A stretch of 64,000 nucleotides of DNA from Candidatus Desulfopertinax cowenii (GTDB lineage: Bacteria; Bacillota; Desulfotomaculia; Desulfotomaculales; Desulforudaceae): NCBI GenBank assembly GCA_001899445.1, contig MPOA01000006.1, positions 372,001-436,000 of the forward strand, given 5' to 3'. Positions 48,063 through 56,275 of the stretch are shown in pieces (within the stretch, counting starts at the first letter, position 1; each line of letters starts with the position of its first letter). A program made the position numbers and the translations under genes. The notes below the pieces were generated by a model, which saw only the letters and a program-made list of their open reading frames with translations, had not been told where the DNA came from and did not search any database.

Positions 48063-49196
48063 TTATAAGCTGTTCTGGGAGTCGGGAGAAGCCTGTAATT
48101 CCACGTAATAGGGCAGCAGCAACCTGTACACTCCGGCCACGACTTCCGGATCGACTCCTTTTTTCGCCGCCAGGACCCGCAGGCGATTGACCACCTGCCG
48201 TTCCCGCGCCGGGTCCCGGATCAGTTTACCGTCCTTAAGTTTTCCGATCCTGCGTACCAGGGACGCGCGCTGGGCCAACAGATCGACGATCCAGCCGTCC
48301 AGGATGTCAATCTCGGCCCGGATCTGGGCGAGATTGGGCCCGGCGGTATCGGGTGCGGGAGTGGAGGCACCAACCGCGGGATAGGAGCCCAGGAGCTTGC
48401 AAAAGCTGCTCCTCTGCCGCGCACCGGCTAGGGCGGCGGCCACTTCCGGCCTGTCCGGGTGTCCCTCGAAGTCGATGAAGAACACGTATTCCCCCAACCG
48501 GGTCTTAGCCGGGCGGGATTCGATCCTGGTGAGATTGACGCCGTGCCGCGCGAACTCGCCCAGCAGGCAGTACAGAGCTCCGGGCCGGTTGTCGACCCCG
48601 ACCAGAATGGTCGTCTTGTCGGCCGGCCCGGCGTAGCAACCCCGGCGCCCGATCACGATAAACCGGGTGGCGTTTTCCCGGAGATCGGCGATATCCTCGG
48701 CCAATATGGTCAGGTCGTGCAGGCGGGCGGCCTTGACCGTGCCGATCGCCGCCCAGGGTTCCGGACTAATCGCTACCGTCCGGGCGGCCTCGGCCGTGCT
48801 CTCGGCCTCCACAAGTTCGATGTCCGGATGATTTCTTTCCAGGTAACCGCGGCACTGGGCCAGGGCCTGAAAATGGGAAATGATCCGGGTCACCCGGCCC
48901 TGGGTTATCCCCGGCCGGGCCAGCAGGTGGTGCCGGATCCGCAGCACGACCTCCCCGCAAATCTGGAGGTGGTCGGCGCGATCGATTAGCAGATCGAGGG
49001 TCAGCGCCAGGGATCCCTCGCAGGAGTTTTCCGCCGGCAGGAGCCCCCAGTCCACACTTCCCTCGTCCACCGCCCGGGCCACCTTCACCAACGAACCCAG
49101 CGCCCGCAAGGTCACCGGACGGCCAGCCGCCCAAATGGACGCCGCCTCTTCCGAATAGGTGCCTTCCGGTCCGAGATAAGCAATGGTTTCCACCAT
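48063..49196 (-). CDS. pheA: Prephenate dehydratase with C-terminal chorismate mutase (domain order reversed)
   Basis: A 377-residue bifunctional enzyme of phenylalanine synthesis. Residues 1-180 are prephenate dehydratase (YLGPEGTYSEEAA, PAENSCEGS, ENATRFIVIG with the catalytic Thr-Arg-Phe). About 185-270 is an ACT domain with GALYCLL and TRIESRP, the phenylalanine-binding motifs. About 285-370 is an AroQ chorismate mutase (IRAEIDILDGWIVDLLAQRASLVRRIGKLK, then RDPARERQVVNRL). In the common P-protein the mutase is N-terminal; here it is last. It lies 16 bases after DAHP synthase and shares its T-box leader. Confidence 0.93.
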   Translation of the reverse strand: MVETIAYLGPEGTYSEEAASIWAAGRPVTLRALGSLVKVARAVDEGSVDWGLLPAENSCEGSLALTLDLLIDRADHLQICGEVVLRIRHHLLARPGITQGRVTRIISHFQALAQCRGYLERNHPDIELVEAESTAEAARTVAISPEPWAAIGTVKAARLHDLTILAEDIADLRENATRFIVIGRRGCYAGPADKTTILVGVDNRPGALYCLLGEFARHGVNLTRIESRPAKTRLGEYVFFIDFEGHPDRPEVAAALAGARQRSSFCKLLGSYPAVGASTPAPDTAGPNLAQIRAEIDILDGWIVDLLAQRASLVRRIGKLKDGKLIRDPARERQVVNRLRVLAAKKGVDPEVVAGVYRLLLPYYVELQASPDSQNSL

Positions 49197-49212
49197 AGTC
49201 TCCCTCCCCACG

Positions 49213-50226
49213 TTATGCTTCCCGGCCCAGCGCCCGGGAAACGGTGCCGACCTCCAGCATCATTTGGGTGAAGGTGGCCGGGTCCAGAGACTGTTTGCCG
49301 TCACACAGTGCCCTTTCCGGTTTCGGGTGCACCTCGACAATGATCCCGTCGGCGCCCGCCGCCACCGCCGCCCGGGACATGGGCGCGATCAGTTCCGGCC
49401 GCCCCGTGGCGTGACTGGGGTCCACGATCACCGGCAGGTGGCTCAGGGTCTTCACCAGGGAAACGGCACTCAGATCAAGAGTATTGCGAGTGTAAGTTTC
49501 AAAGGTCCGGATACCACGTTCGCAGAGCACCACCTGCCCGTTGCCCTCGGCCAAGATGTACTCTGCCGCCATCAGCCACTCCTCAATGGTGGCCGACATC
49601 CCACGTTTTAAAAGCACCGGTTTGCCCACCCGGCCCACCGCCTGCAGGAGGTGGAAGTTTTGCATGTTGCGGGAGCCGACCTGGAGCATATCCACGTATT
49701 CCACCGCCGCTTCCAGGCTGCGCTCGTCGATAACTTCGGTCACCGTGGCCAGCCCGGTGACGGCCGCGACTTCCGCCAGAAGTTCCAGGCCCCGTCGCTC
49801 CAGCCCCTGGAAGCTGTAGGGCGACGTCCGGGGCTTATAAGTACCCCCCCGCAGAATCTTCGCCCCGGACGCCGCCACCACCCGGGCCGCATCGAGCAGT
49901 TGTTCCCGACTTTCCACGGCACACGGACCGGCAATCACCGTCACCTCGCCGGACCCGATCGCCGCCCGGCCAACCCGGACCACGGTTGCCTCCGCTCCGG
50001 ATTCCCTCCCGGCTAAAACATAAGGCCGCCCCACCTGTCGAACCCGGCGCACGCCGGGTATGGCGCCCAGGACTTCCATGACCGGCGCCTGTAAATCCTC
50101 GCCGGTAACGCACACGATCTGCCGTCCACTCCCGACCGGCCGCACTTCCAGGCCTAAACCGTTTAAGACCCGGCCGACCTCGGCCATCTGTGACTCGGAA
50201 GCATCCGTTTCCACGAGAATCATCAC
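49213..50226 (-). CDS. aroF: DAHP synthase (3-deoxy-7-phosphoheptulonate synthase), AroF/AroH type with N-terminal regulatory domain
   Basis: A 337-residue enzyme that condenses phosphoenolpyruvate and erythrose 4-phosphate, the entry to the shikimate pathway. The N-terminal 70 residues form a ferredoxin-like regulatory domain (MILVETDASESQMAEV). The barrel has VIAGPCAVESREQLL, GGTYKPRTSPYSFQGL, LLKRGMS and DPSHATGRPELI. This class resembles the Thermotoga type, in which the front domain binds Tyr or Phe. The start follows GGGGGATTTAA. It is the first gene of the T-box controlled pair with pheA, so its level follows charging of the sensed tRNA. Confidence 0.94.
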   Translation of the reverse strand: MMILVETDASESQMAEVGRVLNGLGLEVRPVGSGRQIVCVTGEDLQAPVMEVLGAIPGVRRVRQVGRPYVLAGRESGAEATVVRVGRAAIGSGEVTVIAGPCAVESREQLLDAARVVAASGAKILRGGTYKPRTSPYSFQGLERRGLELLAEVAAVTGLATVTEVIDERSLEAAVEYVDMLQVGSRNMQNFHLLQAVGRVGKPVLLKRGMSATIEEWLMAAEYILAEGNGQVVLCERGIRTFETYTRNTLDLSAVSLVKTLSHLPVIVDPSHATGRPELIAPMSRAAVAAGADGIIVEVHPKPERALCDGKQSLDPATFTQMMLEVGTVSRALGREA

Positions 50227-50249: not shown

Positions 50250-50670
50250 CTTAAAGTAGAAAAGCCCGACTTCCGTCTCGGGACGAAATCCGGGCTTCCG
50301 CGGTACCACCCCAATTAGCCCCCAAAGGGGCCCACTCCTGAAGGGTACGGGAACGTTTCCGTATCCGGCGCAAACAAAAAGCTTTCATCCGTAGGGACGA
50401 AAGCCTGTTGTCTTCCGCGGTACCACCCTGATTGGTCGAAGGACCCGCTCATACGCCGGGTACGGGACTGACGTCCGATACCCCCTCCCTTTTAACGGTG
50501 GGAGACTCCGGCACGGCCTACTTTACCGAGGCACGGTTTTCAGCCGGGCAACTCGGGGGAGAACTTCGGCAAGCCATACCCTAGAAGCGCTTCCAGTCGC
50601 CGACGCTTCCTTCCTGGAGGGCTGGGACCGACCTACTTTTCCCCTTCACAGTCGTTACGGAGATTCATTT
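50250..50670 (-). ncRNA. T-box leader with one Stem I and two antiterminator/terminator modules, upstream of DAHP synthase
   Basis: Read leftward, Stem I lies at about 50660-50540, with AAAAGTAGG on the 5' side and CCGAAGTTCTCCCC on the 3' side. The codon in the specifier position is probably TTC (Phe) at 50561-50563. The first T-box sequence (GGGTGGTACCGCGG, 50415-50429) is followed by a terminator (50374-50405, AGGCTTTCGTCC against GGATGAAAGCT, then TTTTT). A second copy of the T-box sequence lies at 50298-50311, with its own terminator (50259-50296, GCCCGGATTTCGTCC to GACGGAAGTCGGGCTTTT). Between the modules there is no second Stem I. Uncharged tRNA pairing with either UGGN would favour read-through into aroF-pheA. 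Confidence 0.88.
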
Positions 50671-50762
50671 TTTAAGTAATCGTATCAGAACCCGGCCCCG
50701 CTGTCAAGAATCACGGCCCAGGGAAACCACAAGAATTGCTTGGTCGTGGCGTCTCCCCAACA

Positions 50763-51537: not shown

Positions 51538-52470
51538 TCACCGTTCCTCGCGGTCGTAGGGCTGACCCAGGGCGCCGGGCGCGCCGATGCGGTTCAACAT
51601 GTTCTTTCGGGTAACCAGGATCAGCACGCCGATGGTGAAGAGGTACGGCAGCATCTTCAGAAAATACGGGGAAACCGCCACGTCCAGAGTCTGCAGCCGG
51701 AAGCCCAGGGCGTCGATGCCGCCGAAGATGTAGGCGCCGACCACGGCGTTCAGCGGGTTCCAGGTGGCGAAGATTACCAGGGCCACGGCGATCCAGCCCC
51801 GGCCGGCCACCATATTCTCCATCCAGGCTGGCACGTAGGCCAGGGACAGGTAAGCCCCACCGATGCCGGCCAACATGCCGCCCAGGATCACGTAACCGTA
51901 ACGGCTCAGGAACACGTTCACGCCCAGGGAATCGGCGGCCGCCGGGTTCTCCCCCACCGCACGCAGATTTAACCCGGCCCGGGTCCGGTAAACCCAAAAC
52001 CACAGCGCTGGGGCCAGCAGGAAACTCAAGAGCACCAGGGCGTCGTGCTGGAAGAATATCGGCCCCAGCACCGGGAGGTCCGACAACACCGGTAGGTGCA
52101 CCTCGCGCAGGGGTTTCGCCAGGGGTGTACCGATGTAGGACTTACCCAGGAAGGCGCTCAGGCCCGCCCCGAAAAGGGTGAGGGCCAGGCCGCTGACCAC
52201 CTGGTTGGCTTTCAGAGTGACGGTCAGGAAGGCGTGAATGCAGGCCATAGCCCCACCCGCAACCATCGCGGTCACCACCCCCAGCCAGGGGTCGTTGGTG
52301 GCCACGGCGACGATGAACCCGCTGATGGCGCCGACCAGCATCATTCCCTCCACGCCCAGGTTCAATATTCCCGACCGCTCAGCCATGATCTCCCCGAGCG
52401 CGGCGTACAGGAGCGGGGTACCGGCCACGATGGCGGTGGCCAGAACTGCAATCACAAAATCACCGGTCAC
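51538..52470 (-). CDS. Nucleoside-type ABC transporter permease (second)
   Basis: A 310-residue inner-membrane permease of the BMP/nucleoside importer family (NupQ/YufQ-like). Family motifs include TPLLYAALGEIMAERSGILNLGVEGMMLVGA and YRTRAGLNLRAVGENPAAADSLGVNV, the coupling-helix EAA-like loop. About eight helices are present. The gene overlaps the upstream permease by 11 bases. It completes a four-gene import system with the binding protein, ATPase and first permease; purine nucleosides are the usual substrate of the family. Confidence 0.9.
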   Translation of the reverse strand: MTGDFVIAVLATAIVAGTPLLYAALGEIMAERSGILNLGVEGMMLVGAISGFIVAVATNDPWLGVVTAMVAGGAMACIHAFLTVTLKANQVVSGLALTLFGAGLSAFLGKSYIGTPLAKPLREVHLPVLSDLPVLGPIFFQHDALVLLSFLLAPALWFWVYRTRAGLNLRAVGENPAAADSLGVNVFLSRYGYVILGGMLAGIGGAYLSLAYVPAWMENMVAGRGWIAVALVIFATWNPLNAVVGAYIFGGIDALGFRLQTLDVAVSPYFLKMLPYLFTIGVLILVTRKNMLNRIGAPGALGQPYDREER

Positions 52471-53569
52471 GTTTTTTCACCTCCGCCCTGGGGTCCCGAA
52501 CCCGGCGGAACCGGTATTTCAACAGTACCTCACCGGCCAAGACAAAGAAGAGGACGAGTCCCTGGAGCATGGCTACCATGGTCGCAGGTACGCCGTTGGT
52601 TTGAACAATGTAGCCACCCACCTGCAAGCCCCCGAACAGGAAGGCCACCAGGATAACCGTCAGGGGATTGAGCCGGGCCAGCCAGGCGATAATGATGGCG
52701 GTGTAACCGTAACCGGGACTAAACCCCGGCTGCAGCCGGTGCGCCAGGCCGGACACCTCCACCATACCGGCCAGGCCACAGATCACACCGCTTGCCAACA
52801 TGACCAGGAGGATGTTCCGCCCGATGTTTATCCCGGCATAACGCGCCGCGCCCGGGCTGTCCCCCACGACCCGGATTTCGTAACCCCACCGGGTACGGTA
52901 CAATACCACGTACAAGATCAGGGCCAGGGTGAGGCCCACCAGCAGGCCAGCGTGAATCCGCGAGTCGCCCAGGGTGGGCAGGATCGCTTCTGGCGAAAAC
53001 CGGGCGGTCAGCGGAAAGTTGAAGCCCGCCGGGTCCCGCCACGGCCCGTACACCAGGTAGTCCACCCACAGGATGGCCACGTAATTCAGCATCAGGGTGG
53101 TGATGATTTCGTTCACTCCGAGATAGGCCCGGGGAATAGCCGGCAACAGGCCCCACACACCGCCCCCGACCGCGGCGGCCGCGAACATGCCCGGCAGCAG
53201 GAACCACGCCGGCTGGTCTGGAAAGGTGAGGGCCACCCAAGTGGCCGCACAGGCGCCCATATACAGCTGCCCCTCGCCGCCAATGTTCCACAGCCGCATC
53301 CGGAAGGCCAGCCCGACTCCCAACCCGGCGATCATCAGGGGGATGGCCTTGACCACCGTTTCGAACAATCCGTACCGGGTGCCGAACACTCCGGAGAACA
53401 TTTCCCCGTAGAGAAACCATGGGTCCCGCCCCGTGAAGGCTAGAAAGACGGCACCGGCTAACAGCGCCAGCACCACCGAGCACACCGGCACCAGGACGGA
53501 CATCGCCGGGGAGGGAACCAGACTTCGTTCCAACCGCCACGGGAAAGCCACCGGCCGCAGCCCGCTCAT
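52460..53569 (-). CDS. Nucleoside-type ABC transporter permease (first)
   Basis: A 369-residue permease related to NupP/YufP: TRYGLFETVVKAIPLMIAGLGVGLAFRMRLWNIGGEGQLYMGA near residue 90, then YRTRWGYEIRVVGDSPGAARYAGINI near residue 230. Nine or ten helices are visible, with a basic tail. Start ATG at 53569 overlaps the ATPase stop by 4 bases, so all three are translationally coupled. Confidence 0.9.
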   Translation of the reverse strand: MSGLRPVAFPWRLERSLVPSPAMSVLVPVCSVVLALLAGAVFLAFTGRDPWFLYGEMFSGVFGTRYGLFETVVKAIPLMIAGLGVGLAFRMRLWNIGGEGQLYMGACAATWVALTFPDQPAWFLLPGMFAAAAVGGGVWGLLPAIPRAYLGVNEIITTLMLNYVAILWVDYLVYGPWRDPAGFNFPLTARFSPEAILPTLGDSRIHAGLLVGLTLALILYVVLYRTRWGYEIRVVGDSPGAARYAGINIGRNILLVMLASGVICGLAGMVEVSGLAHRLQPGFSPGYGYTAIIIAWLARLNPLTVILVAFLFGGLQVGGYIVQTNGVPATMVAMLQGLVLFFVLAGEVLLKYRFRRVRDPRAEVKKRDR

Positions 53570-55104
53570 GGCACCGCCTCCTCCGCCGGGCGCTCACCCA
53601 TCATCAAGAGCCCGATTTTCTCGGGGTCCGTCCAATCCACGGAAAGCAAGCCGGTGACCGCGCCCTCGAAAAGCACGGCGATCCGGTCGGAAAGTTTAAA
53701 GATTTCGTCCAGGTCCTCTGAAATCAACAGAATAGCCGTCCCCGCGCTCCGCTGTTCCAGCAGCATCCGGTGCACGTCCTCGGTCGCCCCCACGTCCAGG
53801 CCCCGCACCGGGTACACCGCCACAATCAGACTGGGGTTGGCGGAGATCTCCCGGGCCAGCAGCAGGCGCTGCAGGTTGCCGCCCGAAAGCAGCTTCACCG
53901 GCGCCTCCAGGTCACTGAGGCGCACGTCGAAACGTTTTACCCGCTCAAGCGCCCGCTCCCGGGAACGCCGGCGGTCGAGGAACGGGCCGCGCCGGAACTC
54001 CGGCCGGCGGTAGTCCTTGAGGATCAAGTTGTCCACCGTTCCCAGGCCGGGCACCAGTCCGGCACCTAGGCGGTCCTCGGGGATGTACCCCACCCCGTAG
54101 TCGATCACCCGCCGCACCCCAACGTTGGTGATGTTACAGCCCGCCAGGTGAATGGAGCCCGCCCGGACCGGCCGAAGTCCAGTGACCACCTCGGCCAGTT
54201 CCCGCTGCCCGTTCCCAGCTACCCCGGCCACTCCCAGAATCTCACCGGCATGGACCGTAAGCGAAACACCCCGCAGCCCGGGCCGCCCAAAATCACTGAG
54301 GGCGTGCACATCCCGCAGCTCCAGTACGATCTCACCCCGCTCGGACGGGGGTTTTTTGACCTGGAACACTACGTCCCGGCCCACCATCAACCAGGCCAGG
54401 TCCCGCGCGGTGAAATCGCCGCGCTCCAGCATGGCGACCGCCCGGCCGCGCCGCAGGACGGTCACCCGGTCGGCGATTTCCATGACCTCCTGCAGCTTGT
54501 GGGTGATTACAACCACCGCCTGACCGCGGTCCGCCATCTCCCGCAGGTTCCGAAACAATTCCCGCGCCTCTCCGGGGGTGAGTACAGCCGTGGGTTCGTC
54601 CAGGATCAGCACCCGGCAGCCCCGGTAAAGCATCTTCAGGATTTCGACCCGCTGCCGCTCCCCCACCGAGAGTTGCCAGACCCGGACCTGAGGGTCAACT
54701 CGCAGGCCGTACCGCTCCGATAGGCCAGCGATGTGCCGCTCGATCCGGCGCCGGTTGGGAAAAAACGGGATGTTGCGGTCCCCCAGGATCACGTTTTCGG
54801 CCACCGTGAAGATGTCCACCAGCTTGAAGTGCTGGTGAACCATGCCGATCCCGGCCTCGATGGCATCCCGGGGGGAGCGTAAGGATACCTGCCGCCCCCC
54901 AACGTAGATCTCACCTTCATCCGGACGGTATAATCCGGCCAGGATATTCATTAGGGTACTCTTACCCGAGCCGTTTTCCCCTAACAGGACGTGAATCTCC
55001 CCGGGCCGCAGGGCCAGATCGACCCGATCGTTGGCCAGCACTCCAGGGAACCGCTTGGAAACCTGCCGCATCTCCACCAGAAACTCTGTCTCCACCACTA
55101 CCAT
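53566..55104 (-). CDS. Nucleoside-type ABC transporter ATPase with two ATPase domains
   Basis: A 512-residue protein with tandem ATPase domains as in sugar and nucleoside importers (NupO/YufO, RbsA-like). Domain 1 is complete: Walker A GENGSGKST, LSVGERQ signature, Walker B RVLILDEPTAVLT. Domain 2 (from about 255) has GVAGNGQREL for Walker A and LSGGNLQRL, but its Walker B region reads LIVAVYPVRGLDVG, without the usual DEPT, which is typical for this family's degenerate half. Start is ATG at 55104. A strong hairpin separates it from the binding-protein gene. Confidence 0.93.
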   Translation of the reverse strand: MVVVETEFLVEMRQVSKRFPGVLANDRVDLALRPGEIHVLLGENGSGKSTLMNILAGLYRPDEGEIYVGGRQVSLRSPRDAIEAGIGMVHQHFKLVDIFTVAENVILGDRNIPFFPNRRRIERHIAGLSERYGLRVDPQVRVWQLSVGERQRVEILKMLYRGCRVLILDEPTAVLTPGEARELFRNLREMADRGQAVVVITHKLQEVMEIADRVTVLRRGRAVAMLERGDFTARDLAWLMVGRDVVFQVKKPPSERGEIVLELRDVHALSDFGRPGLRGVSLTVHAGEILGVAGVAGNGQRELAEVVTGLRPVRAGSIHLAGCNITNVGVRRVIDYGVGYIPEDRLGAGLVPGLGTVDNLILKDYRRPEFRRGPFLDRRRSRERALERVKRFDVRLSDLEAPVKLLSGGNLQRLLLAREISANPSLIVAVYPVRGLDVGATEDVHRMLLEQRSAGTAILLISEDLDEIFKLSDRIAVLFEGAVTGLLSVDWTDPEKIGLLMMGERPAEEAVP

Positions 55105-55119
55105 CCTCTTGCATAACCC

Positions 55120-55152
55120 GGGGCGCTGGCAGGGAATCCCCGCCAGCGCCCC
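55120..55152 (-). terminator. Intercistronic hairpin between binding-protein and ATPase genes
   Basis: An 11-bp perfect stem (GGGGCGCTGGC/GCCAGCGCCCC) with an 11-base loop and no T run. It is a likely 3' stabiliser or partial terminator that lets the binding protein be made in excess over the membrane parts. Confidence 0.65.
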
Positions 55153-55168
55153 GTCAGCCGTTGACCAA

Positions 55169-56275
55169 CTAGTTTGGAATGGTGCCTTCGACACCCTGCA
55201 CGAACCACGACATTTCTAGCATTTCCGCATCGGTGAGCGCCTCGCCCTCGGCGACCTTCAGCTCGCCGTTCTGGTCGTAAATCGGGCCGTAAAACACGTC
55301 CCACTCACCGGACAGCAGCCGCTCCTTTTCTCGGGCAACCTTTTCCTTGATTTCGTCGGAAACCATCGGCCCGAACGGTGCCAGATCCACGATGCCGTCC
55401 GCCATGGAACCCCAGTACGGAGCGTTGTCCCAGGTGCCGTTCCGGACGGCCTCGACCGTACGGACGTAGTACGGGCCCCAGTTCCAGACCACCGAAGTCA
55501 GCACGGCTTGCGGCGCCATGGTGCTCATGTCGCTGTTATAGCCGATGCTGTACACACCCTTCTCCTGGGCCGCCTGCTGTGGTCCCGGCGTGTCCTGGTG
55601 CTGGGCGATCACGTCGGCGCCGGCGTCCAGGAGCGCCTCGGCAGCATCCTTCTCCTTCGCCGGGTCGTACCAGGTATGGGTCCAGACTACGCGCACCTTG
55701 GCCTCGGGGTTAACCGACCGCACGCCTAGGGTGAACGCGTTGATCCCACGGATGACCTCCGGAATGGGGTAGGCCGCCACGTAGCCGATCAGGTTGGACT
55801 CGGTGGTCATGCCGGCCACGATGCCGCTCAGGTACCGCGGCTGGTAAATCCGGCCAAAGTAGTTGGTGGCGTTGTCCGCGGTCCGGTAACCTGAGCAGTG
55901 CATGAAGATTACGTTAGGGTACTTTTCAGCCACGTTGATCACCGGATCCATAAAACCAAAGCTGGTGGCAAAAATCACATGGTTGCCGCGCTCCGCCAGC
56001 TGGGTAAGTACCCACTCGGCATCAGCGTCACTCACATTTTCGACCGTCTCGGTCACCACGTAGGGTAGGTTTGCCTCCAGGTACAGGCGCCCCTGGTCGT
56101 GGGCATAGGTCCAGCCCGCATCACCCGGGGAACCGATGTATACGAAACCCACCTTCACGTTTTCTTCGCTTTTGTGCTCGGTGACCGCGTCCCCACCCCC
56201 GCAACCCACGATGATGAAGGTGGCGGCCAGCAGCAGGGTGATCAGGAACACCGCGCGTTTACTCAGCCTGCACAA
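55169..56275 (-). CDS. BMP/PnrA-family nucleoside-binding lipoprotein
   Basis: A 368-residue lipoprotein with signal peptide and lipobox (IIVGC, Cys25). The mature part starts VKVGFVYIGSPGDAGWTYAHDQGR, which is characteristic of the BMP (PF02608) family, followed by HVIFATSFGFMDP, VIAQHQDTPGPQQAAQ and GYNSDMSTMAPQAVL. Members bind purine nucleosides (PnrA, NupN). The start is TTG at 56275, about 10 bases after AGGAGG; an ATT one codon upstream has closer spacing. It is first in the importer operon, with a promoter just upstream. Confidence 0.93.
   Translation of the reverse strand: MCRLSKRAVFLITLLLAATFIIVGCGGGDAVTEHKSEENVKVGFVYIGSPGDAGWTYAHDQGRLYLEANLPYVVTETVENVSDADAEWVLTQLAERGNHVIFATSFGFMDPVINVAEKYPNVIFMHCSGYRTADNATNYFGRIYQPRYLSGIVAGMTTESNLIGYVAAYPIPEVIRGINAFTLGVRSVNPEAKVRVVWTHTWYDPAKEKDAAEALLDAGADVIAQHQDTPGPQQAAQEKGVYSIGYNSDMSTMAPQAVLTSVVWNWGPYYVRTVEAVRNGTWDNAPYWGSMADGIVDLAPFGPMVSDEIKEKVAREKERLLSGEWDVFYGPIYDQNGELKVAEGEALTDAEMLEMSWFVQGVEGTIPN

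Follow-up and report, generated by a model that had tools for sequence, protein, structure and literature searches.

The minus strand of the window (i.e. the whole stretch of 64,000 nucleotides that was analysed) carries a T-box leader 5′ of the aroF and pheA genes, in which a single Stem I is followed by two units, each with a discriminator, an antiterminator and a terminator. The interpretation that we favor, with a probability of roughly 0.6, is a transcriptional T-box responding to tRNA-Phe, in which two successive discriminator-terminator gates share the single Stem I/II sensor by means of strand exchange in a linker hairpin. Two decision points in series would be the natural reading of the sequence. 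The elements of the leader and the genes that follow are, from 5′ to 3′:

50679 to 50707, minus strand: promoter-like TTGACA-17 nt-TACGAT with an extended -10 TG (10/12 matches; 0.1 expected in shuffled sequences).
50560 to 50658, minus strand: Stem I, the sole sensor of the tRNA anticodon, with AGTA at 50637-50634 and UUC (Phe) at 50563-50561 after GAA at 50567-50565 (Rfam alignment and sequence).
50486 to 50559, minus strand: Stem II and Stem IIA/B pseudoknot (CGG/CCG, CUCCC/GGGAG and the CCGUUA box; Rfam alignment and sequence).
50467 to 50483, minus strand: segment a, the 5′ strand of the linker hairpin GGGUAUCGGA (50483-50474) plus loop, with partner b (conformer I) or d (conformer II).
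50452 to 50467, minus strand: segment b, the 3′ strand of the linker hairpin UCCCGUACCC plus the tail GGCGUA, with partner a or c.
50430 to 50450, minus strand: Stem III of unit 1, flanked by purines (GAGCG ... CAA).
50416 to 50429, minus strand: T-box of unit 1, AGGGUGGUACCGCG, its UGGU complementary to ACCA of tRNA-Phe (Rfam and sequence).
50370 to 50406, minus strand: terminator 1 (stem 50406-50379) and its U run; the antiterminator 3′ strand CGUCCC lies within the 5′ arm.
50361 to 50372, minus strand: segment c, UGCGCCGGAUAC, made only past terminator 1; predicted to form 11 pairs with b.
50343 to 50356, minus strand: segment d, ACGUUCCCGUACCC, in which the 3′ strand recurs; predicted to form 12 pairs with a.
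50313 to 50338, minus strand: Stem III of unit 2, flanked by purines (GGAGUG ... UAA).
50299 to 50312, minus strand: T-box of unit 2, GGGGUGGUACCGCG, with UGGU (Rfam and sequence).
50256 to 50295, minus strand: terminator 2 and its U run.
49213 to 50226, minus strand: aroF, DAHP synthase, the first regulated gene (PF00793, E 5e-80).
48063 to 49211, minus strand: pheA, prephenate dehydratase with ACT and chorismate mutase domains, the second gene (PF00800, PF01842, PF01817).

The original prediction, made from the sequence, held that a T-box 12-mer is repeated with a terminator after each copy, behind one Stem I. Both points are borne out. The 12-mer GGTGGTACCGCG occurs twice on the minus strand, at 50427-50416 and 50310-50299 (i.e. 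with a spacing of 117 nt), and a simple scan found one terminator per unit together with one sigma-70-like promoter (TTGACA-17-TACGAT, 50707-50679). A check with the T-box covariance model, which had been proposed, matched in full length at 50658-50390 (90 bits, E 4e-20) and again at 50337-50279, there with the antiterminator part only (model positions 159-216; 32.4 bits, E 2.9e-5). The full match lies just below the Rfam gathering score of 93, so that a default Rfam scan reports nothing at the leader. AGTA and GAA-G-UUC are each present once (50637-50634 and 50567-50561 respectively), indicating one Stem I. A second Stem I, named at the outset as the observation that would overturn the prediction, was found neither in the sequence nor with the Rfam T-box model over the leader, the second match being confined to model positions 159-216; nor is there room for one, because the T-box repeats are only 117 nt apart. 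A full tandem T-box requires a Stem I belonging to unit 2, and so the leader is not of that kind.

The leader has the sequence and structural features of the transcriptional T-box family (RF00230). Stem I contains AGTA and a specifier after GAA, and the genome has a cognate tRNA whose anticodon and discriminator base match. Both units contain the RRRxG-Stem III-AA discriminator, the T-box bulge and the A1/A2 helix, and both have an intrinsic terminator that competes with the antiterminator. The second objection foreseen, that unit 2 might be unable to pair with tRNA or to form the alternative stem, falls away, since UGGU, RRRxG-Stem III-AA and the alternative stem are all retained. The amino acid had been left open among Phe, Tyr and Trp. 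Judged by its UUC specifier the leader is Phe-specific; the tRNA-Phe of this genome has the anticodon GAA and a 3′ end ACCA, fitting both the specifier and the UGGU of the two T-boxes. The identification of the downstream gene as DAHP synthase is upheld by its match to PF00793. pheA lies directly 3′ of aroF (48063-49211 after 49213-50226), and as this second gene encodes a prephenate dehydratase-ACT-chorismate mutase the Phe pathway is confirmed. We note that upstream of the leader, also on the minus strand (51538-56275), lie genes similar to those of a nucleoside ABC transporter of the BmpA type, i.e. for a binding lipoprotein, an ATPase and two permeases.

The same arrangement was then sought in relatives, as had been suggested, using an exact-motif pattern of two T-box motifs with a spacing of 102-132 nt; being an exact-motif search, the census provides a lower bound. 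Matches were found in 75 of 113 genomes of the order (the class-level search comprises the same 113 genomes) and in 67 of 398 genomes of a phylum-wide sample. A backward control pattern gave two matches in the phylum sample and none in the 113 genomes of the order, where true matches occur in 75, and this excludes chance as the source of the matches. A few matches elsewhere were due to chance or were RNase P RNA-like (of the form GGTGGNAGCCCG), and these were discarded. After removal of the RNase P look-alikes 154 loci were retrieved from 121 genomes, 74 of these in the order and 47 elsewhere in 20 families, so that the arrangement is present in about 150 leaders; chance may account for one or two of the pairs, for example at L254, which precedes valS.

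By direct search GAAGUUC, containing the UUC specifier, is present in 140 of the 154 loci, and most of the other 14 are trp, ser or unusual leaders. The gene that follows is aroF in 87 cases, a symporter type in 18, a phenylacetate-CoA-ligase-like (paaK-like) gene in 17, and an ABC substrate-binding protein of two kinds in 14 and 4; single or few loci lie ahead of pheA, trpE, trpD and serC (the last three named from sequence only). Sporotomaculum, Desulfotruncus and Desulfotomaculum copahuensis are among those with the same layout ahead of aroF. A second double leader with UUC is found in the same genome as the window (G000:C6:94596-94967; 1501-1900 of L006), followed by a small open reading frame and by the gene for a sodium:solute symporter, a candidate transporter of Phe (or aromatic compounds). 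Both double T-boxes of this genome (50390-50658 of the window and 1501-1760 of L006) score 87-90 bits, below the Rfam value of 93. This suggests that standard Rfam thresholds under-call double leaders, and annotation would miss both in this genome.

Phe double T-boxes lie before AMP-binding phenylacetate-CoA-ligase-like genes at L134, L136, L138, L142, L155, L161, L171, L176, L180, L184, L185, L210, L213, L216, L220, L222 and L271. This location suggests that under Phe starvation these anaerobes may make Phe from phenylacetate, rather than degrade phenylacetate. One locus, L031, has three T-box-like motifs, but it does not contain a third unit. The middle motif sits in an inserted element of ~155 nt (2215-2372) with a palindrome (AACGTGGTAATAC...GTATTACCGCGTT), located between the linker strand and Stem III of unit 2.

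A linker hairpin lies between Stem IIA/B and unit 1, formed by the 5′ strand GGGUAUCGGA (with the loop, segment a) and the 3′ strand UCCCGUACC (with the tail, segment b). It is also present in single T-boxes of related genomes. At the start of unit 2 the 3′ strand recurs (segment d, the CCCGUACC strand), and the RNA preceding this (segment c) adjoins the U run of terminator 1. A partial tandem duplication ('GGATACGGA...CCCGTACCC') had been predicted; its 3′ half is conserved, but the 5′ half is not conserved between families, so that this is half a repeat.

The pairing of these segments was analysed in 101 non-redundant loci by comparing each segment with its own partner and with the partners of other loci. 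The window locus falls outside this set by a parsing rule, and was analysed in separate folds and in the MAFFT alignment. The z scores for own versus foreign partners were -17 for a:d and -9 for b:c; the classical hairpin a:b gave -9, and the local unit 2 pairing c:d gave -2.7. Related loci are not independent and these overall values overstate independence, and tests by family were therefore performed. Averaged by family a:d was favored in 22 of 24 (p 2e-6) and b:c in 21 of 24 (p 4e-6), with c:d favored in 14 of 24 (p 0.37). When partners were permuted only within families the z scores were -9.4 (a:d), -4.9 (b:c) and -3.8 (c:d). Eight control pairings using segments outside the proposed structure did not exceed |z| 1.7, and another segment, located shortly after d, gave a weaker signal with a (z -3.6).

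In a MAFFT alignment of 101 leaders including that of the window, 92% of a:d pairs are standard, with 54 two-sided changes compared with 12.7 in shuffles; the corresponding changes for a:b number 22 compared with 9.3. There are thus two mutually exclusive helices that share a common strand, both of which have been maintained in evolution. Cross pairing of a with d and of b with c, with unit 2 lacking a conserved linker hairpin of its own, is well supported by these sequence comparisons. A local unit 2 hairpin c:d as the main structure has no support across families (p 0.37). It can be drawn in the window and has some support within families (z -3.8), and may coexist in some of them. Note that strand exchange cannot be universal, since L252 has two units without a linker hairpin.

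In the window the predicted conformer II joins a to d by 12 pairs (50483-50471 with 50343-50356) and b to c by 11 (50463-50452 with 50361-50372). Thermodynamic folding without tRNA, protein or transcription kinetics places the free minimum at conformer II, with -70.1 kcal/mol compared with -66.4 kcal/mol for conformer I. Conformer II of the window is more stable than all of 200 shuffled sequences (z -5.4), and in tRNA-free folding a:d outweighs a:b at equilibrium in 87 of the 101 loci. Conformer II can form only once the polymerase is beyond terminator 1, as c and d are transcribed later.

These properties suggest how one sensor might serve two successive platforms. In conformer I segment a would be paired with its own 3′ strand b, placing gate 1 beside the sensor, and uncharged tRNA-Phe bound to Stem I would first hold gate 1 open. 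Once the polymerase has passed terminator 1, c and then d would be made and both would invade the linker hairpin, using the tail and the loop as toeholds. In the resulting conformer II a would be paired with d and the displaced b with c, forming a closed rod whose end loop contains unit 1. Gate 2 would then take the former position of gate 1 relative to Stem I/II, at about equal distance; the median distance from the 3′ strand to the T-box is 32 nt in unit 2 and 36 nt in unit 1. The 3′ end of the tRNA would move to T-box 2, where the charging state would be tested again, so that expression would require both gates. As serial gates multiply read-through, leakage would be lowered and the response of the Phe branch sharpened. 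The order of events, the hand-off of the tRNA and the AND-like response are inferred. The chances seem to us evenly balanced that toehold-nucleated exchange loops out the spent platform 1 and docks platform 2, with the same tRNA being tested twice.

The two units could instead be plain serial gates, with unit 2 a duplicate working with the tRNA already on Stem I (or with a second, weakly held one), no exchange occurring and the complementarity being a leftover of duplication. Unit 2 does have a complete discriminator and a tRNA-matched T-box, and the second CCCGUACC is recognisable as a copy of the first; copies of a hairpin are automatically complementary to one another. Furthermore, neither 3′ strand is clearly the better partner in the helix core. 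Where the two 3′ strands differ the fit is about equal (a:d 26, a:b 31), so that the core alone does not favor conformer II. However, leftover complementarity would be expected to decay, and to keep c:d in the same manner as a:d; by family c:d is not supported, and a:d and b:c have been kept with two-sided changes. In addition, the loop, which for the most part is unable to pair in the linker hairpin, is complementary to the RNA just ahead of d (z -11, and -6.3 within families). The sequences differ by family (AAUGUUUAU with AUAAACAUU, ACUGUUGU with ACAAUAGU, and AUGAGU with ACUCAU). A plain copy of the 3′ strand does not supply this complementarity, and a leftover of duplication is thus weakened as the whole explanation. 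We consider plain serial gates to be unlikely.

It is a more doubtful proposition that cross pairing represents the OFF state, or the default, i.e. that after leaky read-through in the absence of uncharged tRNA conformer II hides T-box 1 and favors terminator 2, unit 2 being mainly a fail-safe terminator and not a second test of the tRNA. This would accord with conformer II being the predicted tRNA-free equilibrium pairing in 87/101 loci, and with the greater predicted stability of the terminator 2 hairpins (median -23.8 compared with -17.7 for terminator 1). But there would then be no reason for unit 2 to retain a full discriminator, a UGGN matched to the tRNA and an antiterminator strand.

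The conservation of these elements can be compared between the units. The antiterminator 3′ strand follows T-box 1 in 153 and T-box 2 in 150 of the 154 loci, and a terminator hairpin with a U run is present in 153 (unit 1) and 146 (unit 2). The RRRxG-Stem III-AA motif together with the antiterminator forms the discriminator that senses aminoacylation (PMC7583486). RRRxG is found in 135/139 loci in unit 1 and 130/139 in unit 2, and AA in 134/139 and 133/139 respectively. The base contacting the tRNA (opposite tRNA position 73) is U in 140/140 Phe leaders in unit 1 and 138/140 in unit 2. It is C in both units of leaders lacking GAAGUUC that precede trpE (2), trpD, serC (3) and an aminotransferase gene, which suits a tRNA with G73. 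The identity of the contact base in the two units of a leader suits a single tRNA touching both. The 3′ part of the T-box bulge in unit 1 is AAC in 72/140 and ACC in 63/140, while in unit 2 it is ACC in 131/140; in L120-L273 T-box 1 is often UGGUAACGCG (AAC) and T-box 2 almost always UGGUACCGCG (ACC). This difference between T-boxes 1 and 2 may lead to gates of unequal strength. On the basis of these sequences both units look functional in about 150 leaders. It is very improbable that unit 2 is a copy in decay and plays no part in regulation. Duplications do occur, and neither the spacing nor the linker length is constant, but >30 families supply the roughly 150 leaders with both units intact, and of the two units the second is closer to the consensus (ACC in 131/140, compared with 63/140 for unit 1).

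T-boxes in which the terminator-antiterminator elements are duplicated were reportedly described as a structural class by Vitreschak, Mironov, Lyubetsky and Gelfand in 2008 (RNA 14:717). The window leader is like that class in having one specifier stem and two terminator/antiterminator units; the covariation and the survey of the present leaders are independent of that work. The basic class is known, and what appears to be new is the wiring of unit 2 to the linker hairpin of unit 1. In the literature searched, apart from the 2008 study, neither a partly duplicated T-box nor one aptamer with two platforms is described. Nor did we find there a shared, exchangeable linker hairpin, of which the 2008 study may contain a description.

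The leader has Stem I, specifier, Stem II/IIA/B, discriminator and terminator in common with the canonical transcriptional T-box (RF00230, of the B. subtilis glyQS type; PMC7583486), to which it adds a second discriminator and terminator, and a linker hairpin with two alternative partners. Full tandem T-boxes, in which two or three complete T-boxes lie ahead of trp, thrS or ilv (PMC12452182), are similar in making two serial decisions per transcript on the same kind of ligand. In these each unit has both sensor and platform, whereas the present leader has one sensor and two platforms. It lies outside the two categories of the 2025 survey of contiguous riboswitches, namely complete tandem riboswitches and adjacent aptamers with one platform (PMC12452182). 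Strand exchange is the commonest mode of switching in riboswitches (PMC10907184), and the proposal made here shares with these the toehold-nucleated invasion of an upstream helix by RNA made later. By contrast, in strand-exchange riboswitches the exchange sets the ON or OFF state, while the exchange proposed for the present leader would dock a second expression platform once transcription has gone beyond the first.

One sensor with two antiterminators presents a geometric problem, because the distance from Stem I to the discriminator that a tRNA can span is fixed. An exchangeable linker hairpin shared by both units would be a concrete answer to this. If correct, a layout with one sensor and two platforms would be a third tandem arrangement beside the two in the recent survey, and the roughly 150 leaders collected here would be natural instances in which strand exchange may proceed in several steps during transcription, and a useful model for RNA folding and for the design of switches with low leakage.
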